Assembly: GCA_947034885.2 (NCBI GenBank)
Contig: OX344751.2
Coordinates: 14,570,001-14,634,000 of the forward strand
DNA: 64,000 nt
Origin: Thuidium tamariscinum
Lineage: Eukaryota; Streptophyta; Bryopsida; Hypnales; Thuidiaceae
Reading direction: 5' to 3'
The notes beneath the pieces were generated by a model that was not told the DNA's origin, did not search any database, and saw nothing but the letters and a program-made list of their open reading frames with translations. A program made the translations under genes and the position numbers. Shown in pieces: positions 97 through 48,582 of the stretch; position 1 is the first letter of the stretch; each line of letters begins with the position of its first letter.

Positions 97-3000
97 ATCC
101 ATTTCGCATAAGAACTTCCTGATTGGCATATGGATAATGGTGCGAGTGGTTATCACCACTCTTAAGCCACTTCCATTTTCCCGCAAGCTCTCATCCAGCA
201 TCTGCGGCAACCATTGACAAAGTTAATACACGGGTTTCCATTAACTGAAAGTAAGTTTCAAATATTCTCAAAAGATATCGTTGGTATGTGGAGAACATGG
301 AAATTGAATTGGCAGTCCAACCTCGAAGTGAAGCCAATGTAACTACTCAGACTTCTGGAAAAGAAACCTAGTGACTCGGCAAAAACTATAGTCAGAACGC
401 TAACCGCTGATACAAGGAACTCTCTCAAACCCTGTTGCTCTTGCCATTCCCCGAAGAAAAGTCCCGTCCATTTCTCCAAGTCGGGAACTTTTTCTCTGCA
501 CCTTGCAGACAAAGAAGCCCGCACCATTGCATCTACGTGTGCCGTGCGCAACAAGTCTTCTTTACACCTACAGTTGCATATGCATATGCATGAGAAATAC
601 TTCAGAGTCAAGCAGAAAAGAGAACAAAATCCTGCGTATCTTTGATTACTAGTTCAACTTTCCTAAAAGGGTTAATTACCGTAGTAGTAGAGAAAAAATT
701 TGGTCCAAAATTGCAGCAAGAAATTGAAGTAAATAGATCAGCACCATCGACAAGTCCTGTAACGTTGTGATCATGTCTTGAACAACTCTTTCTTTCATGA
801 GGTTTATTTCAAAAGCATGTCAAGAAGTGGTTCGAATCCTGATAAAGAGGATATGCCTGACTCGGTCACATAATACCTGTCAAGAAGCAATATGAATTCA
901 GACGATTCCGTACTGCTGATATCATCAGAGTGCTCAGGTTGATGATGCAACACAAGCGAGGGAAGCGTGTCTTCATGGAACCCAGCGAACAAGTCATTTA
1001 CTTTAAAGACATCATCGGAACGCTCCGAGTTGGTTGAAAGACCCGCCATTTGTTCACACCATGATTTCAGAATTTCCACAGCCTCCCTTCTACTTCCCGT
1101 CAGAATGTTCTCGTAAGTGAGCACTTGCTTCTCGAATCGGTTCAGAAACGGTGGGTCCAGTCGCGAAACTTGGCTGAAGTCCACTACCACAATGCAGCGA
1201 AAGCTGTCATGGACGTAGCACATAGGATTACTGTAAGCTCCAATGGCGATACGGCAGTTTCGCCTCTCGGCCACAGTTGTGTAGTGCTGATTGAGCATGT
1301 CATAGAGCGAGGACCAAAGCCGCTCTACTCCCCTGAGAAGTATGCATCTGCAAAGCCATCAGAAAGTTCAGTTCGAGGTTACGGGCAGTCTAAATGGCCT
1401 GCTAACTTAAAAGCAATATTCACGCATCACTACCGTTCTGAAGTGCACGACACGACTCTCCAAAGAGTCTTCTTCTTAACCTGACAGAAATTTTCGTTTC
1501 TTCATCTTTAAAGAAAGAAACAAAAAAAGAAGAGACGCACCTGCCAGCTTCCATGTGCAAAATTATGATGCTGAGCAACAAATATGAATAGTCATCACTA
1601 CAGTCATCTTTAAATTTGCTTCCGTGAATAATTATCACATTTTTCTGAAACTTCTCGAGAATCCCAATTGCAGAGTCCCCCTGATCCACAACAGAAATAA
1701 ATTGAGTATAATTAATTTCTGCAAAGGAGAACACGCTCACAGGAATCGTGAAAATTCAAAATTCAGGTCATATTTGATGAACAGAGATTATCTTGTGGGA
1801 GTTTAGAAACTTTCCACAACCAATATCTCAGAATTTTACTGAAGTGATAGATTAAGTGTGAAAACTTACGGTGGTGAGCAGCATCAGATGCCTCGCATGC
1901 TTGTCTTCCAGATTCTCTCGAACCAGGTCCATAACAGGGGGTGGCTGTAGCAGGAGCTCTTCATGCCCCAGATTGTGCTTCAGAATATTGGAGAAGGTCT
2001 GCACATCATCAGGTGAGCCTCCAAAGTTCCTCCAGACTGCGGTGACGAGTCCATCCAATTGCCAAGTGACCATGCTCTTATTCACCTGCAGCGACTTTAT
2101 TAGCGAATAGAAGTCACGGAGGCCATGGAAGTTCGGTTTCGTTTGACGGGAATGATACTGGTGGTAGGATTTGGCAAGGCCTCTCAACTCTTTCTTCAGA
2201 GTCTGGTGGAGCCCCTGGTCAGTATTTGAGGAGTCGAAGCTTTCGAGGATGGCGATGCTGGTGTCATACAAATCCTGCTCTGAAGGGTCAGGTTGTGAAA
2301 GATGAATGGCTCGGTTCATTTTGGCAGCATCAAGAGACCAGTTGCTAATACCGACAACCGCCACTTGTTGAGGCTCCTCCGGTTCCAGTAGAGAATGCAG
2401 AACCTGAAGGAAATGGAGACAGTAGTTTGCGATCATCTTTCAGCTACAAAGTGTAATTCATCTATCATCAGAGTCGCTAAAATGTCAAAAACTCGAGAAA
2501 TTGGCACTTTTCCAGACGTCCGTCCTAGTTTTCACTAAAAATTCTTTCAGTCCTAGTTTCTAGAGCTCGAATATCACAATTTCAGACCTTTGAAAAACGC
2601 TGTTTCAACAAATATGTACACTACTCTGAAGATACAAGTCTCCTCTTCCTAATACCTTCAAAGGATTGTGCCTTGATACTTCGGCAAGGCCAACTTCGTC
2701 GAGAACAACCACCACCAGGACATCTCGGCCTTCGTTGTCCCTTCTACACCGCTGGGCTTTCTCAAACACCTGCGCTCACATCAGATCACAGCTATTGAGG
2801 AGACAATCATTTGGGTGGAATATATCGCCGGTTTAGAGTAGTATCAAATTTAGTAATAAGTGTGCCCTGAATCATTTCACACATTCAGTATACTCCCTCC
2901 GTCCTGAATTAGTGTCATATTTGGGGTTCTTTGGTCCCGAATTAAGTGTCCACTACGCAAAGCCTCACGAGCACATTGAACAGTGAGTGCATTAGGCGAG

Positions 3001-6000
3001 TAGATGATTAGGTAATTCCTCAGCACGCTCTAAGCAATCTTTTACTATGTACGGCACCTTATGATTTTTGCCACCACCTTATAATTGGTGCCACCGTTGA
3101 TTTCATTATTTCGATTATGCAATGCTGCATTAATAAGACCAAAAAAATGAATTTGCATCCCCAAACCCTAAGTTCTAAAGTCTAAAACTTATTTCTTGAA
3201 CCCCAAACCTCAAAACGTAGAAAAGTTAGAGTGCTTTTCATGGACTTTCATGAAATGGGCCGATTGATTCGGGACATAGGGAGTATAAGAGACCTTCAAC
3301 CACTTCCTAGTACACAAATTTATGACACCAGCAAGCTTGAGCAATGGAAAAAGTGAATGAAACTACCTTCAGAATTCCCTCGGATGTGGAACTCTCCGAG
3401 CCTTGGTATGAAAATCTATACATTTGGGGCAACTTTTGGAAATAGCTGTCTCTAGACTCCGATCCTCGCAAATTTCTGGAACCAGCCAACAACTTACAAT
3501 TGTGAGATACCCTAAGAAATAGGATCCAAAATTATGAAAAGAAAACCCAACACTTTTTATAGTAATGAATCCCAAACGAATCAAGTATACAAAAAAAGAT
3601 TCTAGCTGGAAAGGGACAAACCCGTAGATCAATTGAAGCGCAAGTGTCTTTCCCGAACCAGGCTTCCCAATTACAAACACTGGAATGTGGTTCAGCATGC
3701 AGACTAATGTCACAAATACATTCTCCAGGATAGCCTTGTTCTTAGCTATGCCGACTGGTACATCCATGCGGTTGAGAAGGTCTAGTTGTTCCGCTCTCAA
3801 AAGCTCCGCAAAAGTATCCCCAGTGAAATCCCTAGTCATTGCCATTATAAAAGATGACTGTTATCATTTGATGTATCCCATTTCGTCAGTCCAACAACGT
3901 AAAAGCAGAAACTCAAGAAAAAGGAGAAAATGCAATAGTGAGGAGGTTTCATTGTACCTGTAAGGCGATGGTTCATGAGCTTTAAGCACGCCCGAAAAAA
4001 TGCTTCTGTAATTCTGTCGTTGTTGCTCAGTGGCTAGACGAGAATGATAGCAATGAGCAAAGGCCAGGAGAGTTGCACGGATTCGGTCTTTTCGAAAGTT
4101 TCCTTTGGGCAAGGATCTCTTGGGAACATCTGTCACAAAAAACTCATACAGTGAAATGCAACGGCTAGCGTCTCTTAAACTCACGCTGGCTTCCCCATGA
4201 CATTCTCTGACGAAGGCTTGTGACTGGACCAAAAGGTCTGAGAAAAGTTGCACATGGGTTTTCACTTTGTCTTTCACCATGGCTTCAATGTAAGCTTGCT
4301 CATCATGCCGTGAAAGTAGGCCGAAGTCCCAAACGTAATCCAACATGGCTTCTGGCAGTGGATGCACCCGGTAGGCGAGGTTGTAGTTTTTCACATCACC
4401 TGGATTCATAAGCTCTCGAGGAGAAAAACCTGTTTGCGAGTTTTCTTTATCGTGGGTCCGATAGGGATTGCAAGCCGCCAGCACCACCAGATTGCGGTCT
4501 AAAGCTTTCCCGTCCAGTAAATGATGACATATGACTCCGTTCAGAAATCCAAGGTGGTCACATGCATTGATCTCGTCAAGAAACGCCCACACCTGATAAA
4601 GCACCATGAAAAAACAGAAAAACATAATAGTTTATGCGCCGAGTTCAGATACAGATATTAGTGTCATCCTGAAATCATTCTGAGATTTACATACTCTATG
4701 TTATCCAAAGATCTGGGATATAAAGATTAAAGACATAATTCAAATCTTGATACTATTTAATTACTAGAAAACAGAGTCCCAAATTAATTTTTTATGAGTA
4801 GGCCAAGTGAAACTTTCTGTTTTCCAATTTAATTTATTTCTTGACCAACTCACCTAACGTTAGTAAGCGATTCTAGAGATATAAAATTTGAATTATATCT
4901 GAATCACATTTTCACAATAATATCAATTAAATTGGTAATTTGCAAATCATGAATCCTAGGCCCTTTAGGAATTAATGACGTCTTACCCAGAAACTGTGGG
5001 AAGCAACTGCTCATTCATCTGTTCATTTCAGACTTGGAAAAAACTATATATGACTGCCGAGAGTGAGAAGTGGCCACCGTTTTCATTTTGGAACCGACTT
5101 GCCTAAAGAGTCTATTTAAGGCCCACATCAATACCCACAGGATATTGAAAAGGACACGAAAACCTCGCACCCCTTCCTAGACGATTATAAAATGCGCAAA
5201 AGAATTGAAGTACGCCTTGTACGGGCCAGAAACTTACCGCTTTGGTCCCTACAATGGCTGCAATATTTGCTTTGAGGAGGAAGGAGCGAATGTCCTCAGC
5301 TGTGGTTCCTGCATGCAGCGTTATGCTGAAGAATTCAACACCGCAGTACTTAGCCAGAACCCTGAGAAGACTCGTCTTTCCACAACCAGTTTCTCCCATT
5401 ATGAGAACGGGCACTTGGGCTGCCACCCGAAGAGCTATCAATGCCATTTTCAAGAAATTGTCAGCTGTGAGGACATAATTGGGTTCAAACGACGGTGCAT
5501 TCCTCTGCAGGATTGGCCACAGATGTGACCAAAGCTCCTGAGAAGACATGTTTGCATAATCTGACATGAGCTTCCCCTCTGTTCTCAACCGTTGGCTGTA
5601 GACGAGCTGTGTTATGGAGTCTGGTAGGAGGTTCACATTTCTGTATAAAAACAGGATCGGTCCCTCATTTTGGAAGAATATCATTAAGTGGTTGCTATCA
5701 GACCAACGCAACATACCCTTGAATCTAGTTTCCATGGTTAAATCCGTGATATTCTTCCCCCTAGATTGTTGCTGCTCGTGAAGCCAAGGCTTCACGGATC
5801 GCAGCGAGAGGTCTCTGGATACTTCTAGAAGAGACATCACAAGATAAGACCGAATGTTGGCCATTGCCCTCATGAACTGCAGCATCTCAACCTTGAAGAA
5901 GATGCTGTCCGTTAGGCTCCGCAGCTGGCAAGCCAAAAACTTCACGAACATCTCCAAGACAGTGAAGGACATAACATTCGCTTCCCTCACATAATCAATG

Positions 6001-9000
6001 AAGTTTCTTCTGAGCAAAGCTCGGCAATGGACTACAGAAAGGGCTTGCACGTTTCGGGAATTTCCAGTGAAAATAAAATCTCGACTGTCCAGCTGCCTCA
6101 ATTCCAACGCTTGTAAATAAATACACACCACCTGCAAGTCGCTGTTTGGGTCATTGCTCACTTCGAGAGACTCCAGATTCCATGTTAGATGCTCTCTTTG
6201 GAACCAGTCACAAACAGGGAGGCTGTTAGCAAGCTCGTTGCCGAGAGTGTTTCCCAGTTCGATTTGTACGTTACTTGTGTTCAAGTGAAACACTCCTGCA
6301 ACGTCTGATTTGAGACATCCAAGCACTAGGAGCTCGAACAATAGCACGTTGAAAGTCTCGGGATTCACCACGCTCGAGATGTCCAGATGCAAAATGCAGT
6401 CTGATCTGAGATCCAATTCCTTAAGCTGTGATACGAGAGAGTTCCGGGATGTATTCCCACTCACACAAAGGGGTCGAACCAAGACCTGCACATCGGCACT
6501 GCAGACAATCAGTATTGTCCATTTCCGGAAACCGGAACCGAGTTCCATTTCCCTACAAATGTCGGACCCTCTCAAAAATCATTCTCCAACAAATGTTGAA
6601 TCTCTCAGAGTTAGACTGAGCCAATCTCTGATGCCATTGTAACACTGACATGATAATACTCAGTAAAATGAGGATGCCCTTCGGTCTACTACACAAGTCA
6701 AAGAGATTCATGCATACATTACGAAAGAGACACACTAAACCAGATCATGAAGGGGACTACGAAGAAGCACATACCGGTGCTTTACTATAAATGCTTCTCG
6801 TCTTTCCCAGACCAGGAAGCTTGGAGGTGATCACCCGCATGTTTGAGCACTCAGCAGGAAGCTGCTGGCGTACCTCAACAGGGTTCAAGGTGCCCACGTG
6901 CAAAACCCGCACATTCAAATGATGAGAGACTGCCAGCAGTGCCTGGCTCTTGGAACAGCACACAACAGCGAGCCTTTCACACTCTTCGCCAATTCGCTGA
7001 GGTTCTCGATGACGGCGTTCTTCCCATTCATGAACCATTTCTTGGAGCACCACCAGAAACTGAGCCTGGCACTCATGGCTCAATTTTTCAATGTAAGCAA
7101 TACAGAAAAGACCCACGTCTTGCTCAGTTCTCTGGAAGCAGCGAAGCAAGAGGAGATGAATCTCCTCCCAGGTCGTGAAGGAACTGCACAACAAGACATT
7201 CCTTGGAACTTCCCTCAAGCTGAGGCCTCTTTTGTGGAACAAGCTCACAACTGCTTCATGTTCCATATGGGACTCTTCCACAAGCGCCAGTACTAGAGCT
7301 TCGTTATGTTTCCCAGAGCTAGACATTCCCTTATTGGACCATGACTTCATTAGGCTAGATGATAACGACGGCGTGGAGCCAAAGATGAAAGGCTTTTGGA
7401 AGAGATCCTCAAGGGACATTGCAATCAGATTCAGGTTTTCACTCAAGGAAGTGGGTACAATATTATTTGCAGAGCTTAGTTGCCGGGCTTTCTGCTTGGC
7501 CCGCTGCAAGTCCTTTCGGGGATCCTGAATGCCAGCCCACTGCAAAAGCTCCGCACACATGGTGTCCTCTTTTGACCACGCAGACGTGGATTGGTCAGTG
7601 AGAACCTCAAGAAGGAGACGTAACTCCATGGAACGGAAATAGTTGAGACAGTAATTGGTGCTGCGGGCTTCCTTCACAGCTGCATACCATTCTCGCAGCT
7701 CTTGGTCGACGCTGCCAGCCAGCGCCTGCAACTCGAGCAGTCCCGACAGCGAGCGGTCGAATTTTGCGAACTGGAAATGGCCTGATGCACAAAGCTCTGT
7801 GATTGAAGTAACAAGCCGCTCCACAATGTCCACTTGGTCGATGAAGAGGCAAGTGTCCTTCTCCGTCTCAGCATCAGAGGAGTCTGCAATTCGAAGTGCT
7901 AGGGACTTAGAATCTAATGCAATCTCTAGCAGCAGAAACAGTAGAATGTACATAACATTAGGGTTATCCGTAAGTCAGATTCATGATCAAACCACCAGAG
8001 AAGGTAAGCCAACACCCATTCCATTGATTCATCCCTACTTCTTGACTGAAACGAGGCGAGCACGATGAGTTTAACGATAATTCTTTTCGTTACCACTTCG
8101 ACTAGGATCTCTTTTGACGTTTGATGCACATGGGGCTATCAGAGAGAAAAAGTAACATTCGTCAACCTCTTGTCCATGATCTCTTCCAAATACATCTGTT
8201 GAAGCGTCCACGAAGCTAAATTTTCAAACCTAGACATTAGTGAAGGCATATCCTCCACTTTATTGTCATAAGCATGGGACCTTCAATCCTGGTAAAGACT
8301 GTCACGTGGACTTGACCGGATTCATCGAAATGGGCAAAACAGTAGAGAAATATAGCTATTTGGACAAGCAAGCAAATTCCAAGAGGTCTTCAAAAACATT
8401 CACAACTCATTAAGTATTCACTTCAATAGCTAATTTAGAACTGACGAAAACTAGCGTCTATTACCTGCAAAGTCAAAGGAAAGTTGTTGAGTACTAGTTT
8501 CTATGATTACTCGTCCACCGACTGGCCATAGGTAAACAGAGAAAGTCACTTTTGAAGACAGGTTCGTTGTTAGTTTGATACCTGCATTATCTGTCAAGAA
8601 ACGCTTGGATTGTGCTTTGTGCGTACTCAAAACCAACCGCGCTCGACTTCGCAAGTCTTGTAACTCGGCAAGGTTATAGACACAAATTTCGTCTCTTGAG
8701 CCGACTTCGCTTGCGAAGATGTGTTGGACATAGTGAACTCCTTTATCTCCACAGGTGAGCTTCAGATCACATACAGTATCAGCGTGCGTGAAATGATACT
8801 TGCCGCCTCTTAAAATCCTCTTCATGTGATCTTTCATTTTCAGCCCCCGGTTGGCCACACTGGAAAGGAACCTTGTGATTTGAGCCACATTTTCATTACA
8901 CATGAATAGCTTCGCAGCTAATGTGCTTGCAGAAGCCGATTCGCTTGCAGAAGACGTTTTGAGCTCCGAAAGCATGACTTTCCGCAACTGCTCAAAATTA

Positions 9001-12000
9001 GGACATCTGGACTTCAATACAGGGCGAAACATTCCTAGATACAAACAAACAAACATACGTCAGCACCTATGAGGGTTTTGCAAAGCACCTGCACTGCACA
9101 ATTAACCTAAATGAGATTGATAAAAAAATGAAGAAGATTCCACCCTCCACAGCAGGACACATTCAAAAGCAACTCCAATGAACCCGAACTGACGGTCTAC
9201 GAAATCCACAGCGGCAGAAAACCTAAGCAAACCCTCCAAAACGAAACTCATTGTGTGTGTTACTTGTGATTACTTACGATGGAGGTCGATCAAATCTGAT
9301 AGAATGGACTCCTGCACAAAATCATTGTCCGAACCTTCCTCAACAGCATCGATCAAATTCCTGAAATCCTCATCCAGCTTGTCCCTCAGGAAATTGATCA
9401 GCGTCTCAGACTTTGCAAGCTGAATGAAGGCAAACTCTTCGTTTACCGAGATCTTCGCCAGGAGATTCTTTCCTTCCTTTTTGTGTAGATCAGTAAACTC
9501 CTTCAACGAGCAATTCTCGTCACATTCCTGCATGAGATTCACCATCTTTCCGAGATATCCCTCGCAGGACTCATCAAACTGGAATAACTGGGCCACTTTA
9601 GGCAAAGCAGCTACGAGTTCTCCTTTCGCTTTAATAGCCTTCCATGCTTGAATCAACTCGATCATGTCAACTGCTTTTCCCCAGGGGAACCAGCTTTTTG
9701 TGTCTTTCATCTTCAATTCTCGTCTTGCCAAGTCAAACTCTCTCTCGATCTGCCGCGCATCCACTGTCACCCATAAAGAGTGCAGCTTGTCCATGTTCAT
9801 CTTTTCCAGGTTCTTCTTTCCGCAGTATGGTTCCATCTCTGCTCTGTATCTGTTAACAGCAAGGGGTACCAAATCTCCAGCCACCATTGAAAAGGACGCG
9901 TCCGGTGTGGGACTGGACGAGGAGCCTGCGTCAATGTCCACGAGTAATGGGAGCAGTTTGCCTTCCACTCTCAGGCGTTCAAACAGATTCCGACACAAAT
10001 TCAACAAAATGCATTTGAAAATCTCAGATTCGTGTAAGAGGATGAGAGAGTCTAAGTGATCAAAAAGTGAAGGGTGAGCTTCTTCAGGCCAATGTGAGGC
10101 AGCAATCAAAAACAGGCGTGTTGACATCCATTTCTCTTTTCTGCTTGTTACAAGTGCTGACCATTTAAGTATTCCTTGAATAGGATACCCCTTTCCACCC
10201 AAATAGCCACACAAAGTGGCCAGTATGTCGCATGCTTGCAATCTCCTTTTGTACAGAACAAGCTCTTTGCATGCCCCTTCCAGTGCAACAGACGCTGTCT
10301 TGTATCCCAACGACTTCAAGATGGATCCCCACTTATCGGTGCGCGAGACACTATCAATGGTGCCCATAGTGACTTTACCCTGCACCACTAAAGTGCCAAA
10401 TGCATGACACGCCTCCTCGACTTTCAGATAGATCCAATGCTCTTTGATGGGCGGCGGGGCAACCTGTACTTGTAGTAAACAGCTTGCAAAATTAGAGGTT
10501 GATATGGTCTGGAAAGCTCGCTCGGTAAGGCTTTCCTCAAAGACTTTGTTTTCAGCCATCTTGTCTAAAAGTGCTACACAAAGCTCCACCTGAATCCTGT
10601 GAGCCACGTAGTAACGTGATCGATGAGAGTTTGAGAGCTTGTATCAAAGAATGTGGTCCATATATATATGTTCCTCCAAAGCTAACTAACTATGGTCATC
10701 ATTCTGAAAGCATGGACGAACATCTGAATTGAATGCAGAGAGCGAAAAAAGGTGAGAACCCAGTTGTTCTTGCAGGAAGCCGCGTCATCCCATATAAAGG
10801 AGAACTCTAAACTCTAATCTTGGATTTCAACTCATACACCAAACGTCAACCCAGTTTTTCCTTCTTTTAATGACCGTGACGGAACATTCACAAGGGAATA
10901 ATTTGCAAATGACAGCTGGGGACTTGGAACAATTCAAACTGATCCTGATCTATCGGAAAAGAAGACCAACGAACCCAAAAGGTGAGAAAAATTACTTCTC
11001 TTTAGCACTCAAGGCTCCATGGCCGTGCTGACCGCACAGCGCCCTGAGAATCTGCTCGCTGATCCTGTCAAGCTCTGCGACGTTGTTTGCACTCTGGAGC
11101 TGCCAGTGTATCATCGTTACAACTGCGCTTTTGTACTCCAATTGAAGGGACTCGTGAAGCTGGCTAATCTTCTCCGACTCGGCAAGGAAGTGCTGAAGGC
11201 CTCTGGATCGTTGTTGACTGGACGCAACTGCTGCCTGCGTCAAGCACTTCCCAAAGAAACTGGATGGATCCACGCCTAGATTGAAAACATCTTGCACACA
11301 TCTGAAATAGGATAACGGAGATTGTGACTGCTTTCCTCGACTGACAGACGACGACAGCCACGGGCGTAAAACATCCTTACTTAGGTGCTCCACGTGTTCT
11401 GCTTTCCGGGTCTCGTCGGAATAGCAGTTCCCCACTTTTTGAATAATAACCTTACTAAAGTTGAATAACTCTTCGACATCAGATGATGCGAACCTGAGGA
11501 GCAGTTGACACTCAGCAGGCAACAAAGGCAACAGAAATGTGAAAGGGTATTTAAACACAATTTTCTCGGTAATGTCAACCAAGGACACCAGATCCGGTTC
11601 GGATTTCCTTCCAAAATCCGAAGCCGGTTTCGACATGATCTGAAGGAGCATTTCGACGATATGTTCCCGGAAAGAAGAAGAAAGAAAGACCGGAAGAACA
11701 ACCGAATTCTCAAAAACTGCTTCACATTCGACATGTGCAACAATGAGCTCCAGATGCTGCTGCCAGAATTCTGCCTTTCGCCTAGAAGATTGATTTCTCA
11801 TATGATCATTCATGACTTTGGTGAACCACTGATGCAAAGTATCCTGAAGCTCCGCACGAATCTCATCATCTATGTTTTCAGTTGGATCCCAATCTGCTGC
11901 ACTCCTCATCCAGGCCTGCAACTCACGAGACTGTAATAAAAAGGTAGGAAAAGTTGGGGCAGCAAACAGAACTTTCCGAAAGGTACGTTTTCTCAACGCC

Positions 12001-14020
12001 TTTGCCTTGCCGAATGACTCGTTGGTATTCATCATGTTGTTGACAGCACTTCGATAGGCTTGCTCCGCGTTCTTTCGCCTGGGGACATCTCTCATGTCGA
12101 GCTGAAACTCTGTCACTTTTTCCAGGAAACTAAAAGTGGTATCATACCTCCCAAGGATTTGCAGTTGGGAGATCCAATCGAAGGAGAACCGAGAGACGCG
12201 TCCAACCAGCTCCGAAACTCCTTCTCGAAAGATTTTATTGGAAATGGGTGGAGGGGTGTAATCACATCCAGAGATCGAAAATTTGTGGAGAGCGTAGAGG
12301 ATGACTTCGTATACCTCATAGAGCTTCTCCATGGCGACCTGACCTTCCTCATAGCGAGCCAACTCCTTCAGAGGCTCAAAAAGCCCCAGGCAGAGGATGA
12401 ACATTTTCAACCCAACAGTCTTTTTGTGAGCAGCATCTGGCACCTTGGAACCACCATATACATCTGCAACTTTGGCAGCCCAGTTTGCTACTGTTCCCAG
12501 TAAAGGCTTACCGTGACCGTAGGGATAACCTCGAAGTATGAACTCTTTAAATCTATGCCCATAGCGAACCCTCAGAAACTCTCTGACACACTCGACAATG
12601 TTGGAGGGGTTGACCACGAAGATCATTTGGGTAATCATAGCTAGCCATTGAATTACACCCAGCGAATCGCTCTTCAGCACCTCGCCTCTATCGTTAACCA
12701 CATCGAACCGGAACGACAGACATTTTCTTAGCTCCTTGATGGTCGAAATTGCTACCCTTTCAGAATCCAGCTTCGCCCCACTCAAATTATTCAATATGGA
12801 ACTGATTGTGTTGGTGACGAACCCAGCGGACGCAGGAATGTCACTTATAGTGAAGTGGTATGCAAGCCCGGTGTTACGTTCCTCCCTCCGAGGAAGAGCT
12901 TCGGAGAACCAGAAATTGTACGGAAAGCCGAAGAAGTCGAGAGTTTCTTCGAGATGCAACTCAACTGCTATCGCTTCCTCCACCGATCCCTGAGCCAAGA
13001 TCGTCAAGTAATATTAAGGCAATAGAGACAAGCAAAGGAGATCAGCACATGTACTATGTTGAGTGGTTAAAGGTTTCGAAGATCATACAAGCTAGTTAAC
13101 CGCGTGTATATGGGAAAATTTAATGTGTACAAATCGAAGCAACAAACTTGAGATATAAAAGTTAAATCTGAAACTACAGCGTGTGCAAGCAGGGGTGAGA
13201 AAACAAGCTGAATAGAGGCCATTGCATTTATGACATCATTTGATGCTCATTTTTTGTAATGGACTAGTGCAATGTCAACATGGAACCAATGAATATTCGT
13301 AAGAAAAGTTTTGATTTTTGCACCAATGAAGATGTCAAATTCCTTCTTATCTCAAGGTGGTTACTTCGACCAGTGTAAAGGGTGCATGCACAAGAAGCAA
13401 ACTAGATCCCGGAAAGCAATGTCTTGCAATGATGATAACAAATGGAGAGAAGATTGAATTACCTCATATTTCACGAATGCCACGCAATCTGAGATCGACT
13501 TTGGGGCGACGAAACAAAGCCGAAACTTTTCATTCGCTTGGTCTTCATCAGCTCTGTGATCAGAAACATAAAGAGAAGTATCCTCTCTAATAAGTTCATC
13601 TTCATCAGATGTTGAGGCTTGATTTGAACCCAATTGTGCGGCATATGAACCCACAGTAAGGGCGTCAGTTCGGCTTGCACTTGAATGTCCATAATGATCA
13701 TCCTTGAGGTACTCAGGATCAAAAACTGGCAGCGAATCTGATACTCTTCCTGCAGCCACCCTCGCATTCTTGACTGGAAAGTGCTGCAAGGCCGTCTTAT
13801 AACTTGCGTGTAGCGTATAATTTACATCCTCATCGATAACACTCTTGAGACCCAAATCGGCTTTAGAACTGCTACACGGATGCTGTGCCTCGTCTAATTG
13901 ACTAGCCACCGCTTGAACGGCTGAATCGCTTGCAGCCTGCTCGCTTTGGATAACCGAGCTTCCACGCATGGCATGGAGTTCATGGTAATTGTCCCCCAGG
14001 AAAGGGTCTATGTCCGCCAT
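97..14020 (-). CDS. RNF213/mysterin-like AAA+ E3 ubiquitin ligase, 5' (N-terminal) part
   Basis: Giant dynein-like AAA+ ATPase fused in this family to an E3 ligase module. Exons read (high to low): 14020-13463, 12989-10996, 10596-9278, 9034-8465, 7925-6775, 6485-5238, 4592-3958, 3831-3622, 3475-3367, 2769-2656, 2403-1870, 1680-1541, 1332-877, 567-405, 201-97. Every junction is GT-AG and the phases agree, giving about 3,102 residues without a stop. Residues 1 to about 1,850 are the N-terminal and stalk part. A P-loop-like PGLGKT lies near 1,850, then AAA3 Walker A GETGCGKT near 2,228 and Walker B FLDEIN, then AAA4 Walker A GKPGSGKT near 2,547 and Walker B VVLDEVGLAE. The order and flanks (MDVP, GISNW, AKMNR, SLYDMLNQ) match animal RNF213. 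The start MADIDPFL at 14020 follows in-frame ATGs that probably lie in a 5' intron. The last two exons (567-405, 201-97) are less certain. The RING/E3 part lies beyond position 1. The gene looks intact and functional; its plant role is unknown. Confidence 0.88.
1870..3831 (-). other. AAA4 module of the RNF213-like protein
   Basis: Four exons (3831-3622, 3475-3367, 2769-2656, 2403-1870) encode the fourth AAA unit. Walker A is GKPGSGKT and Walker B is VVVVLDEVGLAE. They are followed by GISNWSLDAAKMNRAI, the conserved sensor and arginine region of the family. All catalytic residues I can recognise are intact. The intron between 3367 and 2769 carries a MITE (2893-3283) that does not disturb the splice sites. 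Confidence 0.87.
2893..3283. mobile_element. Stowaway-like (Tc1/mariner) MITE in an RNF213-like intron
   Basis: 391 bp between TA dinucleotides (2891-2892 and 3284-3285). The left end starts CTCCCTCCGTCCTGAATTAG, and the right end reads as the inverse complement, CTCCCTATGTCCCGAATC. This is the classic Stowaway terminal motif with a TA target. There is no coding capacity. It lies in the intron between exons 3475-3367 and 2769-2656. Confidence 0.75.
3958..6485 (-). other. AAA3 module of the RNF213-like protein
   Basis: Two exons (6485-5238 and 4592-3958) encode the third AAA unit. The Walker A GETGCGKT sits about 50 residues before the first exon's end. The next exon opens with Walker B (WAFLDEIN) and a sensor-1 type ACNPY motif. 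The intron falls exactly between 'GTKA' and 'VWAF', so nucleotide binding and hydrolysis motifs are on separate exons. Lys and the Asp-Glu pair are all present, so AAA3 should be a working ATPase. In animal RNF213, AAA3 and AAA4 are the catalytic units. Confidence 0.88.
6775..7925 (-). other. Exon ending in a degenerate AAA2-type P-loop of the RNF213-like protein
   Basis: This 1,151-base exon encodes about 383 residues. They end in SKLPGLGKTRS, a Walker A-like loop whose first glycine is replaced; the next exon continues with LHLDISSVVN and LLFELLVL, as after AAA2 in animal homologues. In animals AAA2 binds but does not turn over nucleotide. A structural, non-catalytic ATP site is therefore likely here, by homology only. 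Confidence 0.6.
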
Positions 14021-15600: not shown

Positions 15601-16499
15601 AAAAAACATTGCAGAAATGTACATTTAAGCATTTCTGATAATGACGAGGATGAAAACTCGCAGCTGTAGCTTCTCATCCAACTGCGCATTCGCAGTCATC
15701 CGCTCCCGCTGAGGTGACGTTGTCGCGTGGCAGTTCCTGGGCCGTCGATCTCTCACAGAAGCGGCTCCATCTCAGCCCTCCATTTCGCAGGGTTTTGCCT
15801 CCTTGGGTTTCAGTTAAACCCTGATATTGTAGCAGCTTCATGTCCCTCGTTGCAGGTTTTGTCGCATAATTTTTTGGTTTTCTGAGCGGTTTAGTTACTT
15901 GTTTAGCATTTCTCCCTGCAATTTCCTGAGGCGCTGAATTGCTAATCGCCTGATTGTACTCCGTTGCTGATTTGTTGGAGTTCCTGCCTTACTCATTCTG
16001 GAGATCGCAGAGGAATTGAGAGCCTGTTACGTTCAGACTTCAGAAGTTCAGAGCTCTAGAACTCTGCATTTGTGCTTTGAAATTGAGCCGGCATTTGCAA
16101 TTGCAAGCGCCAAAGCCGTCAATCCTATGTGCTTTGAAGCTTGCACTTTGGAGATTTCTGCTTCCTGGAGTCCTGGCATTTACAGCATTGTAAAAATGGA
16201 GGCTTTGAATGAATCACTTGGATGTTGGCGATGGTGGCAAGTCTGGCGACTGGCAAAGTTAGCGGCATTCCTCATGCATAAAAATTGGGTTCTCCACGAT
16301 GATTTGCATTGTTCTTTCAACCGCTCATCGCTTTCAGTATTGCTTTCTTGCCTTTGCTTTTAGTTTTCAATCCTGTGCTTTGAGCTTCCATTGTTTTGCT
16401 TTGTGCTTTTACTGTTTTGTGGTATACGTTTCTGTTTCGTGGTGTAGGGGGGGGGAAATTTGGGAATTTGGGGCTTGGGGTGCAGGATCTGCTGCTGGA
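15601..16499. other. Intergenic spacer before the hAT element
   Basis: 900 bases of mixed composition with no supported gene. It holds the head-to-head space between the RNF213-like gene (minus) and the hAT transposase (plus). A G-run lies at 16,446-16,455. A TGCAG at about 16,486 could be a splice acceptor for the transposase's first coding exon. I found no terminal inverted repeat that marks the element's left end. Confidence 0.35.
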
Positions 16500-19400
16500 A
16501 TGGCGCCTCGCTTGAAGCTGCCCGACAACTTCCGAGTGAAGACGTTCTTCTCAAGCCGCAATAGCCAGGGGGTGGGGAACTTGATGATCGCAGCGGAGTT
16601 TGTTAATGATGAACTCACACATGTTTCCGAGACTCGCCTCCCCGATTCCTTATCTGTCCATGTACAATTTCAGAGCCCATCTGAATGCACAGTATTGTCT
16701 CCTCCCCCGAAATCAAATGGCGGTGACGATGTTGGTACGCGGAGGGGGAAGAAAAGGAGGACTGCAGCCGATGCCGCGTCTTCTGTACCAAAGCAAAAGA
16801 AGGTAGCTCCGAGTACAATTACACGCAAGTGGCAAGCCGTGTGGGCAGCTCGATTTACTTGGGCCGAAGGCGAATTCGATGCAAATGGTGACTTGAAGGG
16901 AGTAGTGTGCCAGAGTTGCACGGCGATCAGTGGAAGGAGAAAGGTCATTGTTCCAAAAGGGGACAATCTGGAGAAGCACAAGGGTAAAAGAATGTGCATG
17001 GAGGATGGGGTGCCTTTCCCGCACCTCAAGAAGGGCCAGACCTTCACGAAACTGGATTGCAAACACCTTCAATTCTGCAAGGCTTGGGTGGGCCGTTCGC
17101 GTGGGAGTGTCGCAGATCAACTGGTCGGTGGCTTGCATGGCGAGCTAAAACGCAAGGGAGTACAATTCTCAACCCTTTTTCAAATTTTGAGTCATGGGCG
17201 TCCAATGTGTGATTACGAACGTGAGCAGTATCTGTTGAAGCACCTGAAAGTGAAAAATTTGCCAGTAAAGCATTGGTGTGAGAACAGTGGGTGGGAAATG
17301 AGTGAACACGTCCATACTAGCGTTCTGTCCGCTCTGAAGGCCGTTGTCCAATCTGCCCGCATAATCTCTATTAGTGCAGATGAAGTAACCGCTGTGGACA
17401 ACACTTCGTGGCTAGGGGTGCATGTTTACGTAATGGACGATTGGGAGAGGGTACCTCACCTGCTACACCTGTCGTGTGTTGCCGATGGCAGCGCAGATCA
17501 CTTAACGAGTACAATTATATACTCTCTGTTAGAGGAGGGAGGGCTAACCCGTGAGTCCATAGCATCCAAATTGATTTGTTTTGGAGCTGATGGAGTGTCT
17601 ACATTTCAGGGTCGCTAAAACAGGGTCACTACCCAAATTCAGAAAAAGTAGGCCCCTTTCGTACTTGGTGCTAGCTGTGCTAGTCACCGAATTAATCTTG
17701 TAGTGGAAACTCTTTCCAACTACCCAATGATTCATCGTTTAGAGGGATTGTTTCAGGCCATCTATAGTTACTTCTGCCGCAGTCATAAGCGGCACTCTGA
17801 ACTTCAGAAACTAGCAGATCTCATGGAAACTAAGGCAAAAAAGATGCTGAGGAATGTAGACACTCGTTGGATTTCCATGAGGAGTCCAGCCCAAAGAGTT
17901 ATGAGTGAATACACCACTTTGCTGGTGAAGATGGGGGTAGATGCTTCTATTGGGCAGAAGTCTACCTCTGTTGCTACTGGGAATTTCGATTTCCTTGTTG
18001 ACGTTGACGTTCTCTTGTCACTCGCCTTGTTTATCTCGATGTTGAATGCGGTACATTGCTTGATTAAGCTAAGCCAAGCACGGGACATCTTTGTGTGTGA
18101 CTTTATGCAAGCCATCAAGATTTGCCAAAACGAGTTGGCCAGAATGTTCATTGATCCATCCACATCATATACTGGGGTGGAGTTTGTACAATACAACGAT
18201 ATTGTCCAAATGCAAAGTGCCGATATTCCTTTGCAATGGAGAGATTTGGACGGTAACAACGGCATTTGCCACTTGGTTTTCAATCTGAAAATCACGACAG
18301 TCTTTGCCCGCTGCAAAGACAAATTCACGGGGGCTGAAATTTTTGTCACTCATCAAGAATTCAATCGCTGCCAAGATACTGTCCAATGGCAGTTTGCTGG
18401 TAAGGCCCTGTACTAGTTTCATAACCTTGAAGTTTGATTTTTAGTTTTCTTTCTTTCATTTGTTTCATTTGTACAATTTATTTGGCTCATTTGTTTCATG
18501 GTTAGTTGGTCTCTTGTGTTTGGTTGAAGTCTTTTACTTCTCTCATTTACATTTTTTTTTTATTTGTTTGTTTTTGTTTTTTAGGTATAGTGTTCAGTTT
18601 ATAGTTGGCTGAATTGTCTCATTGAATTTGTAATTTTGTTTGGCTCATTTGTTTCATTTGGTTGAATTGGCTCATTGGCTCATTTGTTTTTTGTGTTTCT
18701 TGCTCTATGTTATTGAAGTGACTTAGTAGTTTAGATTGAATACTTTGATTTGAATGTTCTTTTTCAGTTTGTTCACTCTGTAGCTGATCGCTCTTTGTAT
18801 GTTAAGAACCGCAGGTGCAGTGTTCTGGAGAACATCCAACGTCATTTTTGGGGGGAATTAATCTCCCCATTTTTTTGTCAATTTCTTTGCTTCACTTGTT
18901 CATTTCATGTGTAAATTCTCTCATTCCTTGTTGGTTTTCATGAATGCAGAGATTGCTCAGTCTCTTTGTGATGAATTAGACAAACGATTTCCACAGCAAG
19001 ATTTACTTGATGCATTTGGCATCATTTATCCCCAATATTGGAAACAAGAGGGGGCAGATGCAAGTTTCCCTCAGGATTTATCAGTGCTGAAGCAGTTTTA
19101 TTGCCATGCTAAGCTTGTGAGTATAGGCAGCCAAGAGGGAGATGGGGGGAGGCCTTACACTGCCCCTGAAATGTTATCTGCTGCTAAACTAGATAATCAG
19201 CAGAGTCTATTCAAGGTAACTATGAAATCAAATGCTGATGTAGCACTTGCACCACCCTACAATGTGAATCCAGTGATCAAATTGTGGAGAAACCTTTCTC
19301 AGTCACGGCACTTGGGTAGCTTGATCTCCGAATACTTCAAGGTCGCTGAGATTGGCTGCTGTATGGTCTTGGGCTCAGTGGAGGATGAAAGGTGTTTCAG

Positions 19401-19569
19401 TACTTTGAAATTCCTAAAGTCTTGTCACCGCAACCGCTTGGGCAAGCACTTGCCACTTGTTGTCCGCATGTTTGGACAGAAATTCTACACATTGCAGAGT
19501 TTTCCCTACAAAGAGGCTATAGACTCTCAGAGAAATGCGGTCAAGAATGGTCGGCATGGTGATGTGTGA
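16500..19569 (+). pseudogene. hAT-superfamily transposase, spliced, with two nonsense codons
   Basis: The frame opens MAPRLKLPDNF at 16500. It has a BED-like zinc finger (CQSC, then H and C near 16,910-17,000) and an RNase H-like core with SADEVTAVDN (first Asp), FGADGVSTFQG (second Asp region) and CASHRINLV (the hAT CxxH). The hAT dimerisation domain follows in the last exon (GSVEDERCFSTLKFLKSCH). Exons: 16500-18399, about 18784-18850, and 18950-19569; the first junction has matching phase. Two in-frame stops, TAA at 17616-17618 and TAG at 17649-17651, interrupt the core, and the same frame continues with full similarity on both sides. No frameshift was seen in exon 1. Most likely a recently dead element. 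A stop-free source copy elsewhere is expected. Ends and 8-bp target duplication not found. Confidence 0.8.
18400..18783 (+). repeat. T-rich hAT intron with degenerate 'ggctcatttg' repeats
   Basis: Donor GTAAGG at 18400 and acceptor CTCTGTAG ending 18783. The interior has repeated variants of ggctcatttgtttcattt. It is non-coding, and the degenerate repetition looks like replication slippage. Confidence 0.45.
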
Positions 19570-29673: not shown

Positions 29674-31407
29674 GACTGATCTCAATCAATCAATCAATCA
29701 CATGTAGCTTTCCATGATTACCGTAGTTACTTAGAGGAAACACTTGGAGATTCAAACTTTCAGAATTTTCTTCTAGCAAAATAGAATGAATGATCTACTT
29801 ATAGGATTTCTAGAAAAGAAAAAGGCTGCTCCAAGAAATTCTAGACACCAATGAATCATGAGAAAGTTTTTTTTTTAATGATGCTGTCTAAAATTTCCTA
29901 AGTCTAAGTTTATTGAAACCTTGGTGGATTCCTTAACAATTACAATTCAAAAAAGTCAAACTACTATTTTCACCACTCTGTATAATACGATGCGACATTA
30001 CTGAGCAAACATAGTGACAAAAACTACCTTATTTTGAAGTAGCTTGAGTTCTCCAACTTTACCGCTGTACTGATCAAAGAGACGTCGGCTCTCCGCTCTC
30101 TGCATGTGCATAAACTCAACTTCAACATCTAAAATTGACGATTCAATTACAATCAACAATAAAAATACTAGCAAATTGTGGTATTTTGCTCTTACACATG
30201 TGAAAGATCATTTCTGGGTAAATGCAAGAAATACTTGTACTATTTGTTGCATTTCGTCACACCTTAGTTTTTTTATTTTTATTTTAGCCATAACTTTTGT
30301 GTTTTAGTTCCAAATGACTCAAAATTTATATGGGAGCTACTCATAGCTATTATGTATCTAAAATGAATTTTGTAAATCTTTCAAAAATAATTTATTATTT
30401 TTAAATAGCCCCCAAAATTTCTCACAGTACTTAATTTAAGGGTTTTTAGCACCCCGAATCTCCTAAAAAACGAATTTTGATCTAAAATTTGGAGAGGATG
30501 GTCTTTTAATAGACTTATAGCTACTGTCCAAAGGAATTCTAAGAATATTTATTTTTATGTGTTATAGAAGTCCACAAAGAGAACTTCATTCTGCATTTTT
30601 TTCCAAAGGTATAAAACATTATTTTGGTGAGTTTTCTGGTCAAATCTCATAACCAAAAAGTTTTTTCAAATGCTATATTTTTATGTATTTAAAAAAAAAA
30701 TCCTATTTTTTACAAATTAAAATGTCACAAGTTGTATTTTCTTCACCGGAACTTTGGACATAGAATTCTCATAGAATTCCAGTGAAGAAAATACAACTTG
30801 TGACATTTTTATTTGTAGAAAATAGGATTATTATTTTTTTAAATATATAAAAATACAAAACTTGAAAAAACTTTTTGGTGACAAAATTTGACTAAAAAAA
30901 TCAACAAAATAATGTTTCATACCTTTGGAAAAAAATGCAAAATGAAGCTCTCTTTGTGGACTTTTACAACACACAAAAATAAGTATTTTTAGAATCCCTT
31001 CAAGTGGTAAGTATAATTCTACTAAGAAACCATCCTCTCCAAATTTTAGGTCAAAATTCGTTTTTTTTGGAGATAAATGGTACTAAAAACCCATAAATTG
31101 AGTATTGTGAGAAATTTTTGGGGCTATTTAAAAATAATAAATTATTTTTGAAAAATCTCCAAAATTCTTTATAGATACATAATATCTATGAGTAGCTTTC
31201 CTATAAATTTTGAGTCATTTGGAGCTAAAACACAAAAGTTATAGCTAAAAAAAAAGTAAAAAACTAGGGTGTGACAAAAGGCTTTAAGTGTTTCTTGCAT
31301 TCACCCTTCTTCACAATAGTACAATAGGTTGACAAGATATCCTAGAACATGTGAAATCTAGTAGTAGTGAATGAAGAAGCAATCCCTCCTCTTTGAATTC
31401 AAAGACC
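29674..31407 (-). pseudogene. Duplicated fragment of the HUB/BRE1-like gene, split by a foldback element
   Basis: 29,674-30,215 and 31,307-31,407 match 52,985-53,505 and 53,540-53,700 of the HUB gene, introns included, at a high but not perfect level. The copy contains the 101-bp exon (30128-30028) with its splice signals and open frame (EVEFMHMQRAESRRL...). It also contains the start of the next exon's TGTGTAAG donor area and, after the insert, part of the upstream exon. The 1,091-bp foldback 30216-31306 sits between. It has no promoter or RING and is a genomic-DNA duplicate, not a retrocopy, because introns are present. Confidence 0.82.
30216..31306. mobile_element. Foldback (palindromic) element, 1.09 kb
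   Basis: The two arms are inverse copies over nearly the whole length. The outer ends are GGGTAAATGCAAGAAATACT and the inverse of GGGTGAATGCAAGAAACACT. The centre near 30,770 reads TTCACCGGAAC...AGTGAAG between CACAAGTTGTATTTTC and its complement. The flanks TTCT on both sides suggest a short target duplication. Non-coding. The transcript of either strand would fold into an approximately 500-bp stem. Confidence 0.75.
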
Positions 31408-39916: not shown

Positions 39917-42612
39917 AATGATTACAAAATTGCATCATCAAAAATATAATTTTTTCTTTTGTACCTTGGTAATTGAGTGAACAAGTAATAGAATGTGTTC
40001 CTCATTTGTTCTCCATTCTCTAAAATTGCTCCTCACACTATGAAATTTGCTACGCATTTTAAAAATCAATTCACCATTTTCTTTAAGGTTTAGGAGCCCT
40101 TGTCTTTTAAAGGGTTCTACATTTTGATACTTGCTTCTCATTTTTTCCTTTGAGAAGGAATACACTTTGATTGTTTATTTAATAGATGTGATGTAATTGA
40201 AATTTCACAACACAATTGTCCCATGTCAACATTCTTGAGGTACTAATAATCATTCACAATTTTTTCGTTATTATCTAGGGAACCTCTACATCTACTGACT
40301 ATGAATACACATGTAAAACTTTTACATATGTACCTTGTATTAATCTACAATGATTTGAATTTTCAACATAAGCTAAGAAAAGAGGACTTTTGTATGTGGA
40401 GTGGGCTTCATAAATCAATTTGAGAGCAAATTAAATTAATTACCAAAAATTACTACAAAAGAGAGACCATTTCAACCAATCTTGGTCTCTTATACTTCAC
40501 CAAACTTCTAATTTTAGAATTGAATTCTTGTTGTTGTGATCTATTCCGACATTTTATGTTCAGTGTGTGTAGTGTAGATAACATTGACTTATCTTTATAA
40601 GTATATAGGGGTCAATTTTGAATCTCATTTTTTTCCTATACATAATTAAATGAGAAAGCCAAAAAAAATAGCTCCCTATTTTATCCCTTTAAAATACATG
40701 TATCGGCTTCATAGATTTCTTTTGTTTATGTAAGAGCAATGGTTTGCTTGGGGTATTACTTTTTGGACATACTAATTAGGTGATTTTTGTTTTAAACCTC
40801 CAAAGTTTGTTTTATTTATTTATTTTGACTAAGGAAGAAGATACTAAAAATGAAAAGAAAAATTCTCATACCTTGATTAGAATTAAGATGTATATTTTTT
40901 ATGAGTGTATCTTTATAAAATTTGAATTTTTTAATATATTGATAAAGGTGGAAAATATCACAAAATTTTGGAATTAATAGGCATTATAGTGCACAATTTA
41001 TTAAATTATTATTGAGAAAATTAAATTTTTATGTATTGGATCACTAAATGTAAGTCATATCCAAAGATGATATTAAAATAGAAATAATGATATTCTAAAT
41101 GATTGTTACTAAAGATTCTATATACATAAGGCACAACTTACTCTTCAAATCAAAAATTCTAATAATAATTCTTTCAAATCTTTGATTGTAATGAAGTTTT
41201 TTTTATGAATGATCTCTATTTCTTTAAATTTTGTTGCCTATCCATCAAAACAAATCTCCTACAAAGAAAAATAATTTAATATTTATTTTTTAGTTTATAA
41301 AGGCCAGAAGTGTTTTTCACAATGCATCTACTTACACATGTTCATGTTTAATTGAACACTACTAGAATTTTATTCGACCCCTCAAAGACCAACAAAGCAT
41401 AATACGTCTACTTTAAATTTTGAAATGGCAAATTCAAAGTAGAGTGAAATAAATCTCAATATTTTGTAAAATAGGATCTTATAGAGTAACAAGTTTACAT
41501 ATTTGTTTCTTTCTCTGATTTTCAAAATTTGAATAAGAGAAGTATTTAAAATTTTATTTAGGAAATGTAGTCTAATAAAAAAAGGAGCAAATATGATGTT
41601 TTTTCAATCAAAGGAGTATTAGAGGTGGAAAAAAATTTTAATTTTTTTTCTATCCTTTATTCTATACAAATAATCAATATTCAAAGAATTTTTTTTCAAA
41701 ATTTGATTTTTAGTACTTTAAGAAAATAAAAGATTCAATCTATTGTGATTATGAATAGAAAATAATTACACTAATTCCAAAATTTCTAAAGATGTTCCTA
41801 GGCAATTTTTTATAAGGGGAAAAAAAACATTATTCATCTCTTATAAAAAAAATTCTCCAAAATTTGTATATTTTGCCTATTCAAAATTGTTACAATCTAA
41901 AAATCCAATCGTCAAAATCTTTCACAATTTATTCCATCTATACAAGATAAAATAGTCTTTACTTTTATTTGGTTGAAATAAAAAATTTCAAGCACATCTA
42001 TGTGTAAAAAAATATAAAATTTGGACAATTAATTGAAAACCTTCATTGTGAAAGAGTCATTTAGCCATAAGTAGTTAAGAAGTTTCATGTAGGATCTACA
42101 AGTCTCAAGAGAACAAATTGCCTTTGTTTCTAAATTCAATGGATTGTATACCATGAATGAAGATGAGTTTTACTATGCTATAACATTGTCTTAATTGACA
42201 TAAGATAAAGCATTATAAATCAAACTTCTTCAAATAATTTAAAAGCCAAAAGAAAAAGGAATGATAATGATCTCTACTTTGCTATGATATAAAAAATTTG
42301 AAATGTTTGTTTATTTTGAAAGTCTCCTACAAGCCTTCCTTCAAAGAAATCTAGACATGTTGTGAGGATGTCATGATGACATTGCACATGAGGTCATCTT
42401 TATCACCTTCTCTAATTTCTAGCCTACATAAAAATAATTGATAAACAAGATGTATGGGTAGATGGTCATAGTATTGAAAAACATTGTTGGAAACTACTTT
42501 TCTAGTAAAGATGTTGTTCCAATCACATTTCATCAATTCATAGTTCTTAAACTCTTTAATTTCATCCTTACATCATCTTTGAAAATCTTGAGTCATTTTA
42601 ATAATATTCAAT
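39917..42612. other. AT-rich spacer
   Basis: No gene, element ends or ordered repeats recognised; the longest open frames (65-75 codons) are AT-biased and unconvincing. Confidence 0.4.
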
Positions 42613-44012: not shown

Positions 44013-44518
44013 TTTTTGTTCAAGATGCATCAAACAACCACCATTAGTATTTGCATAAAAACAAAATAAAACTAGTATATTAGTTAAAAGTAAAGAAACA
44101 CTTCTTGCATGATAGTGCTTGACAATTAAGAAACAAATCTACACCTTACTTTAATTTAGTAGACACAGGCTACAATCATATTCCACATAACTTTATTAAT
44201 TTATATGTCTTTGTATGAATGTTGGAAACAACATCAAAATGTTTGTTAGGACATCTTGTATGGTGTGATAACAAAGAAAAGCATGTATTTTATAACATTG
44301 CTATGCAACTTCAATGCTTTTGAAGCTAATAGAAATAAACTTGAATACACTCATTTCCTTTACGACTCAGTTTTATGTATGCCATATACAACAAGAATGG
44401 ATAAAAATTTTAGAAGATGCTAGATAATGATCAAGAAAATGTCATAGAAAACATCAAAGAAAATGTTTATTCCAGTAATTCTCTAAAATTTGTTCATAAC
44501 TTTTGACATCTATACCTT
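44013..44518. other. AT-rich spacer
   Basis: No feature recognised between the large foldback and the solo Helitron-like copy. Confidence 0.35.
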
Positions 44519-48016: not shown

Positions 48017-48582
48017 CTACCTCCGTCCTAAAATGATCTTCCTGTTTAACAAAATATTATGGATTAAGGCCAAAAATAACATTTTAAAGTCCCCTTTGGA
48101 TTTGTAAGCAAAGCTTGGTTCACTCTTAGTATCTTTGAAACTTTGAGTTTTAAAACCCTTTTTCAAAGTGTAATTTTAGAATATAGAAAAGTAGAATTTT
48201 GGAGGCATTTTCAAAAAGCACTAGTAGGCACTTAAATTTTGAATTTGAAGTTGTTATTGTGGGTGATTAGTATGGGTCTAAGACCATGTGTGAACCTTTG
48301 TTCCACCTACCAAAGCTTCACCTCCTTCAAGTAGGCAACACTCAAAGAGATGCAAAAAATGCAAACAAATAGTGTTGATTAACCCCTTTAGTCATTTCTT
48401 TTGTCTTTTTATTGATGATTTTATGAATGGAAGGGAAATTATTGCTTAAAGTTGTTTTGCTAGTCTTGGACAAGAATTAAAATCCAAATTTGACAAATTT
48501 TCATATCACAAAAGGCAACAAGAAGATCATTTTGGGACAAAAAATTAAGGCCAACAGCAAGATCATTTTGGGACGGAGGGAG
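48017..48582. mobile_element. Stowaway-like (Tc1/mariner) MITE, 566 bp
   Basis: Left CTACCTCCGTCCTAAAATGA and right inverse CTCCCTCCGTCCCAAAATGA, with TA on each side. The inverted match extends about 28 bp (..TCTTCCTG/..TCTTGCTG). The right end is partly duplicated (two 'aagatcattttgggac' at about 48,524 and 48,558). Non-coding. Confidence 0.75.

Follow-up and report, generated by a model that had tools for sequence, protein, structure and literature searches.

The RNF213-family locus

We analysed a 64,000-nucleotide stretch of the genome of the moss Thuidium tamariscinum (contig OX344751.2; hereafter the window), which carries at its left end, on the minus strand, the 5′ part of a gene of the RNF213/mysterin family. 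Human RNF213 is an immune and blood-vessel-disease (Moyamoya) factor, and the protein has been studied in vertebrates. An earlier reading of the letters alone (the sequence-only reading) had proposed an RNF213 homologue here with fifteen exons and about 3,100 residues, and its dimensions agree with the refined model: splicing the 15 exons between 14020 and 97 yields one continuous frame of 9,279 nucleotides, or 3,093 codons without a stop, and the 14 introns (126–645 nucleotides each) all have GT/AG ends. The gene then leaves the window. The model was made by a small Viterbi gene finder, after which the junctions were refined against moss and fern proteins; a tiny additional exon of the initial model (8076–8135) was dropped at refinement. 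One in-frame stop, at 3864–3866, falls inside a 126-nucleotide intron. The gene and its exons are listed below, with tblastn values from a search with the Ceratodon protein P0001.

97..14020, minus: RNF213-family gene, 5′ part (spliced model without stop, homology, tree)
13463..14020, minus: exon 1, inferred start codon (open frame, donor GTAATT; no homologue detected)
10996..12989, minus: exon 2, N-terminal region (E 7.8e-26)
9278..10596, minus: exon 3, N-terminal/linker region (E 6.5e-59)
8465..9034, minus: exon 4 (E 2.7e-19; 3′ join uncertain)
6775..7883, minus: exon 5, P-loop PGLGKT at 6816–6799 (E 6.6e-50; motif)
5238..6485, minus: exon 6, AAA3 Walker A GETGCGKT at 5396–5373 (E 1e-110)
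3958..4592, minus: exon 7, AAA3 Walker B AFLDEI at 4586–4569, probable IR3 region (block 4592–3621, E 1.8e-78)
3622..3831, minus: exon 8, AAA4 Walker A GKPGSGKT at 3668–3645 (block shared with exon 7)
3367..3475, minus: exon 9, AAA4 (73% identity, E 2.5e-10)
2656..2769, minus: exon 10, AAA4 Walker B VVLDEVGLAE at 2709–2680 (65%, E 7.5e-5)
1870..2403, minus: exon 11, AAA4/AAA5 (E 4e-53)
1541..1680, minus: exon 12, AAA5 (E 4e-16; acceptor placed by moss sequence)
877..1347, minus: exon 13, AAA5 region (E 8e-47)
405..567, minus: exon 14 (E 3.5e-7)
97..201, minus: exon 15, probable (splice sites and by-eye likeness of GLRVVITTRTIIHMPIR to moss GIKLVVTTRSNIHTDIR; no tblastn match)

Exon 1 (14020–13463) gave no tblastn match to P0001 and no Pfam match, and because it has no detectable homologue we infer the start codon. 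The junction of exons 4 and 5 is uncertain. On the minus strand of the gene region the longest open frame has 673 residues (161 at most on the opposite strand), against 256 or fewer in 200 mononucleotide shuffles of the region. The tblastn search with P0001 gave 12 colinear blocks at E ≤ 1e-3, spanning exons 2–14, and five shuffled versions of P0001 gave no match.

From the lack of stops the sequence-only reading had concluded that the gene is under selection. The open chain itself stands, but it is weak evidence alone because exons are picked for openness. Conservation with a fern is the better evidence: over the 810-residue core, identity to Ceratopteris is 56% for the window and 54% for the moss Ceratodon. 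The window truncates the gene, and a transposable element sits in one of its introns, as might be expected of a decaying pseudogene. This reading is very improbable, however, given 3,093 codons with neither stop nor frameshift, intact Walker motifs and GT/AG splice sites, and a guanine-plus-cytosine (GC) content that varies by codon position (53/37/52% at positions 1/2/3; introns 38%).

The AAA core is of RNF213 type

The joined core of the window protein (residues 2151–3093) is colinear with RNF213 chains over 840 residues at E 1.4e-113. Midasin reaches E 1.9e-19, its best stretch covering 49 residues around one P-loop, and no dynein chain was found at E ≤ 0.01. A gene of the midasin/Rea1 or dynein kind might be read from the AAA3 Walker A exon alone, which puts midasin on top (E 2e-21, several P-loops summed, against about 1e-12 for RNF213). 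Of dynein, the 60 of 102 matches listed for that exon include a single chain, at E 0.076. When the next exon, with the AAA3 Walker B, is searched against solved structures, the matches are instead nine RNF213 sequences (best E 2e-22) plus a single further one at E 0.9. The joined-core search therefore leads us to reject the midasin/dynein assignment, which has next to no probability, and the placement with dyneins or midasin that would have told against the sequence-only reading is excluded. The window gene is confirmed as an RNF213/mysterin homologue with an AAA core of RNF213 type.

Walker A and Walker B are complete in AAA3 (GETGCGKT and AFLDEI) and in AAA4 (GKPGSGKT and VVLDEVGLAE), in the order found in RNF213. 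A further P-loop, PGLGKT in exon 5, would be AAA2-type, judged from its location ahead of AAA3. After NPYR, the AAA3 of the window aligns to RNF213 over a somewhat shorter stretch ending in YRVHPLP; this part of exon 7 is the probable IR3 region, the bounds of which are not mappable from the published numbering. The exon 13 block RRNCRIA.GA.SNPMC.VH..FRCIVVV is common to fern, moss and window. The likely region of the AAA5 insertion IR5 is also present and conserved in these three; mouse Tyr3078 is not placeable in it, the numbering offsets being unsettled. Pfam gave no CBM20 domain in the window frames scanned, nor in four plant relatives (P0001, P0003, P0004 and P0006).

Relatives, phylogeny and plant origin

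Two protein searches were made. In the first, a query of 1,081 residues was run against 5.8 billion proteins and the best 120 of 708 matches were listed; the second used an alignment of the 810-residue core, was meant to catch short gene models, and has 120 of 291 matches listed. Both screen by shared words and length, and many listed matches are nameless; the results below refer to these two lists. The best named matches of the first search are from the mosses Ceratodon (P0001, 54% identity) and Physcomitrium (P0003, 53%), and it also found the ferns Ceratopteris (P0004/P0007) and Adiantum (P0005/P0006) at 49–51% and, at 45% with 96% coverage, the alga Mesotaenium. Next after these streptophytes come the arbuscular mycorrhizal fungus Entrophospora and animals, including corals and amphioxus. 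The sole named plant of the second list is the fern Adiantum, beside glomeromycotan fungi, molluscs, fishes, a coral, Reticulomyxa and Amoebophrya. Neither set of 120 listed matches contains a named seed plant.

RNF213-type AAA cores are present in the arbuscular mycorrhizal fungi Paraglomus, Rhizophagus, Dentiscutata and Entrophospora (P0245, P0252, P0257, P0008 and others). A scan of bacterial and archaeal genome contigs with two short peptide patterns gave 30 pattern matches, none of which encodes a relative; this is a weak negative.

The sequence-only reading knew of no described function for RNF213 in plants. No description of it was found in the open-licence literature searched, for which the listings are partial and so no proof of absence in print, and to that extent this holds; UniRef, on the other hand, already labels four of the plant relatives ‘RZ-type domain-containing protein’. 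The plant genes are thus already in databases, and plant RNF213 is undescribed in the literature searched rather than unseen. The AAA core places the gene in the RNF213 family; what sets the plant branch apart is a clade-specific AAA4 P-loop and, in the relatives, an RZ finger that has altered zinc ligands and no Pfam RING beside it.

A first tree was built from the window and 45 of the 120 listed proteins. Its nine streptophyte rows (mosses, ferns and Mesotaenium) form one clade with support 100/100, and the window is sister to Ceratodon plus Physcomitrium (100/97); from its placement in this tree we take P0002 to be a probable streptophyte protein. P0008, P0009, P0046, P0013 and P0047 have long branches there, and the Mesotaenium sequence P0009 has an odd composition. 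In a second tree of 26 rows that included fungi, protists and fishes, the streptophyte clade (ten rows) again had support 100/100, and the window joined the mosses at 100/98. We do not trust the order of the deep non-plant branches, because Reticulomyxa, Amoebophrya and Saccostrea are long-branched in this tree. The search with the AAA core and the tree that the sequence-only reading had suggested thus recovered moss, fern and algal relatives in a single, fully supported streptophyte clade.

Since RNF213 is known from animals, and relatives occur in glomeromycotan fungi, the contig might be thought an animal or fungal contaminant. A grouping of the window with arbuscular mycorrhizal fungi was ruled out, as a second tree constrained to unite it with four fungi was rejected (p-AU 0.00027). 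A second gene of the same window also speaks for moss. This is a BRE1/HUB-like histone H2B ubiquitin ligase gene of many short exons (50282–58743, minus strand). Its best match is at 70% identity, followed by five Physcomitrium entries at 53–63% (724–816 bits), with Sphagnum below them at 53–55% (632–645 bits) among the 120 of 141 matches listed. In a quick tree of 24 rows it falls among the Physcomitrium copies (support 100), outside Sphagnum and the liverworts. The two gene trees agree on moss, and the window is therefore most likely moss DNA; contamination, which the sequence-only reading had also thought unlikely, appears very unlikely, with hardly any probability left to it. The gene is best explained as the moss representative of an ancient streptophyte branch of RNF213/mysterin, passed down by vertical inheritance.

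A canonical AAA4 P-loop in the plant branch

The claim that AAA3 and AAA4 are intact and in the animal order holds for the completeness and order of the Walker motifs, but the AAA4 P-loop itself is canonical, unlike that of every readable non-plant relative in the two lists. It could be read in all 121 sequences of the first set (the best 120 matches and the window). The canonical GKPGSGKT is present in nine of these, all streptophytes (eight relatives and the window), whereas in each of the remaining 112 a serine precedes the lysine: GKPGCSKS in 109, GRPGCSKS in two and GSPGSSKS in one. In the second list the motif was readable in 98 of 120 records, with serine before the lysine in all 98; GKPGSGKT was found in none of the 120 records, among which the Adiantum fragments P0241 and P0357 are unreadable at this position. 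The Walker A of AAA3 is GETGCGKT in 117 of the 121 sequences, the remaining four being unread.

In the alignments midasin uses glycine before the lysine. Because other six-AAA proteins such as midasin carry glycine there, the plant form is probably the ancestral one. A canonical P-loop also suggests that AAA4 handles nucleotide more tightly or faster than it does in animals.

The E3 end in plant relatives

The window copy ends ahead of the ubiquitin ligase (E3) module, the lack of which would have told against the sequence-only reading; the plant relatives do have it, and what follows comes from them. Comparison of profiles from the C-terminal parts of six plant and 15 animal or other members gave a match over 1615 columns (E 4e-127), and the N-terminal and linker parts (seven plant rows, window included) matched over 1139 columns (E 5e-109). 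The Pfam RZ finger (PF20173) is found in all four plant proteins scanned (P0001, P0003, P0004 and P0006; E 5e-12 to 3e-15), and at E ≤ 0.1 none of the four has a Pfam RING. Neither RZ nor RING came up at that threshold in amphioxus P0102 or coral P0025.

According to PMC11549300, the human RZ finger binds zinc through C4505, H4509, C4525 and C4528, with C4516 as nucleophile and H4537 as base, and the H4509A exchange abolishes pathogen ubiquitylation. The Cys/Cys/Cys/His spacing of the human finger is kept in nine of the 240 records of the two RNF213 searches; this pattern is not exhaustive, as P0031 has a precomputed Pfam RZ finger and yet does not match it. All seven plant proteins that extend to the RZ region (P0001–P0007, of which P0005 is an N-terminally short model) have Cys and His at the C4516/H4537 spacing, while Mesotaenium P0009 and the Adiantum fragments fail the pattern. 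The first ligand pair of the seven is C-x-C in five and H-x-C in two, both mosses, and zinc binding in the plant finger would have to rely on this nearby pair. Because the nucleophile and base positions are kept, we read the altered ligands as a departure within the family. P0010, also among the spacing matches, likewise has C-x-C, and P0013 has the mammal-like form.

The corals P0025 and P0071 have an RZ site with C-x-C and CPxC, which shows that C-x-C also occurs outside plants. This site has no catalytic Cys in either protein, and P0025 seems to retain a His at the base position; both may be pseudo-ligases. P0031, which lies outside the plant clade in the first tree, has a precomputed Pfam RZ finger and CBM20 (PF00686) together.

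Proposed mechanism and role

The mammalian protein offers a model of how such a chain may work. Mouse RNF213 becomes more active as an E3 when ATP is bound at AAA3 and AAA4, and the RZ dyad Cys4462/His4483 participates in transfer from UBE2L3 (PMC12075652); autoubiquitylation survives deletion of the RING (PMC7311170). According to PMC11549300, RING deletion leaves bacterial ubiquitylation unaffected and partly affects Toxoplasma vacuoles, dead-Walker alleles form no coat on the pathogens tested, and with RZ-dead alleles the pathogens tested are not ubiquitylated. By analogy, the leftward continuation of the window gene would encode the same RZ-type E3 module as its kin, and ATP at AAA3 and AAA4 would switch on thioester ubiquitin transfer from E2 to the RZ cysteine and on to substrate. 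The moss protein would then be an ATP-gated, RZ-type, RING-less ubiquitin ligase of the streptophyte RNF213 branch. The functional part of this reading is drawn from mammalian work, and to the explanation as a whole we assign a probability of about 0.72. Its likely role would be that of a cytosolic, energy-sensing ligase for cell-autonomous defence or for the surfaces of lipid droplets and organelles.

Several points weigh against this. The E3 half of this gene copy lies beyond the window. The two profile matches (1615 and 1139 columns) stand without an unrelated control, and the C-terminal similarity needs profiles, because moss residues 3281–4300 as a single sequence match nothing in the PDB at E ≤ 1. 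All seven plant proteins carry Tyr or Phe in place of the zinc ligand H4509, and so depart from the C-x3-H ... C-x2-C ligand set. Finally, an RZ ligase is not to be assumed for every family member, because two coral members have no catalytic Cys. The truncation by the window, the loss of H4509 and the coral sites, with the lack of Pfam RZ or RING in P0025 and P0102, also fit an RNF213-like AAA machine with a weak or lost E3 in this species, acting as an ATP-driven oligomer or scaffold. We consider that improbable, since the closest named relatives, Ceratodon and Physcomitrium, both retain an RZ finger in which the Cys/His spacing is kept.

A different question is what an ATP-gated RZ ligase would serve. 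Mosses and ferns store oil, which counts for a main role at lipid droplets or in general proteostasis rather than in immunity. A title cited in PMC11549300, that mammalian mysterin stabilises lipid droplets, points the same way, and we regard such a role as a real possibility, though not the favoured one.

More speculatively, and in our judgement unlikely as a whole, the RNF213 retained by non-seed streptophytes may have an RZ finger but no RING, together with a fully canonical AAA4 P-loop, and serve as an ATP-gated ligase that coats and tags intruders or organelle surfaces inside plant cells, a cell-autonomous defence layer common to plants and animals that was lost toward seed plants; its form perhaps predates the animal AAA4 change and the gain of the RING. 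The absence from seed plants, if true, would explain the lack of functional knowledge from Arabidopsis. The plant branch lets one ask whether ATP-gated RZ ubiquitylation predates animal immunity, and which of the AAA4 P-loop, the RING and CBM20 were gained or altered later. Physcomitrium has a relative and is amenable to gene targeting, and a knockout is therefore feasible.

Other features of the window

Two miniature inverted-repeat transposable elements (MITEs) and a group of open frames were located outside the exons described above.

2889..3287, no strand assigned: Stowaway-like MITE in the intron between exons 9 and 10 (21-nucleotide terminal inverted repeats, 86%)
48008–48591: second Stowaway-like MITE (54-nucleotide terminal inverted repeats, 78%)
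16263–19566, plus: three consecutive open frames of 451, 254 and 235 residues

The terminal inverted repeats of the MITEs are of the CTCCCTCCGTCC type, and the 12-mer has five matches with up to two mismatches against 1.1 expected. The name Stowaway is our presumption for both. Stowaway elements are known from flowering plants, and a Stowaway-like MITE in a moss may merit a check. The open frames at 16263–19566, by eye, presumably resemble a hAT-type transposase; Pfam gives no match to them at E ≤ 0.01. Between 20000 and 48000 the sequence is AT-rich (25–35% GC per 2-kilobase bin) with many inverted and direct repeats, for example with arms inside 30269–31263 and 42610–44015, and a pair of repeats 23.3 kilobases apart lies at 29679–30183 and 52982–53481. 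No RNA family or tRNA was found within the 64,000 nucleotides.

Comparison with known systems

Midasin/Rea1 and dynein resemble the window protein in having six AAA units per chain; the similarity to midasin lies at the P-loop, and no dynein chain appears at the threshold used. The coral and amphioxus members (Xenia P0025, Paramuricea P0071 and Branchiostoma P0102) have an AAA core 42–44% identical to that of the window, and their flanking parts are included in the long profile match with the plant members. They differ by the serine before the AAA4 lysine and, in P0025 and P0071, by an RZ site without the catalytic Cys. The plant relatives in the databases share clade and motifs with the window (49–54% identity over the 1,081 residues queried), the difference being that the window copy stops before the E3 module.

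With respect to mammalian RNF213, the AAA4 P-loop is GKPGSSKS in the human chain and GKPGSGKT in the window, the four plant kin scanned have no Pfam RING, the RZ ligands of plant kin are C-x-C or H-x-C instead of C-x3-H, and Pfam CBM20 is absent from the plant proteins and window frames scanned. What the two have in common is the order and motifs of AAA3 and AAA4 and a colinear core, both seen in the window, and, in its plant kin, an RZ-bearing C-terminal module.

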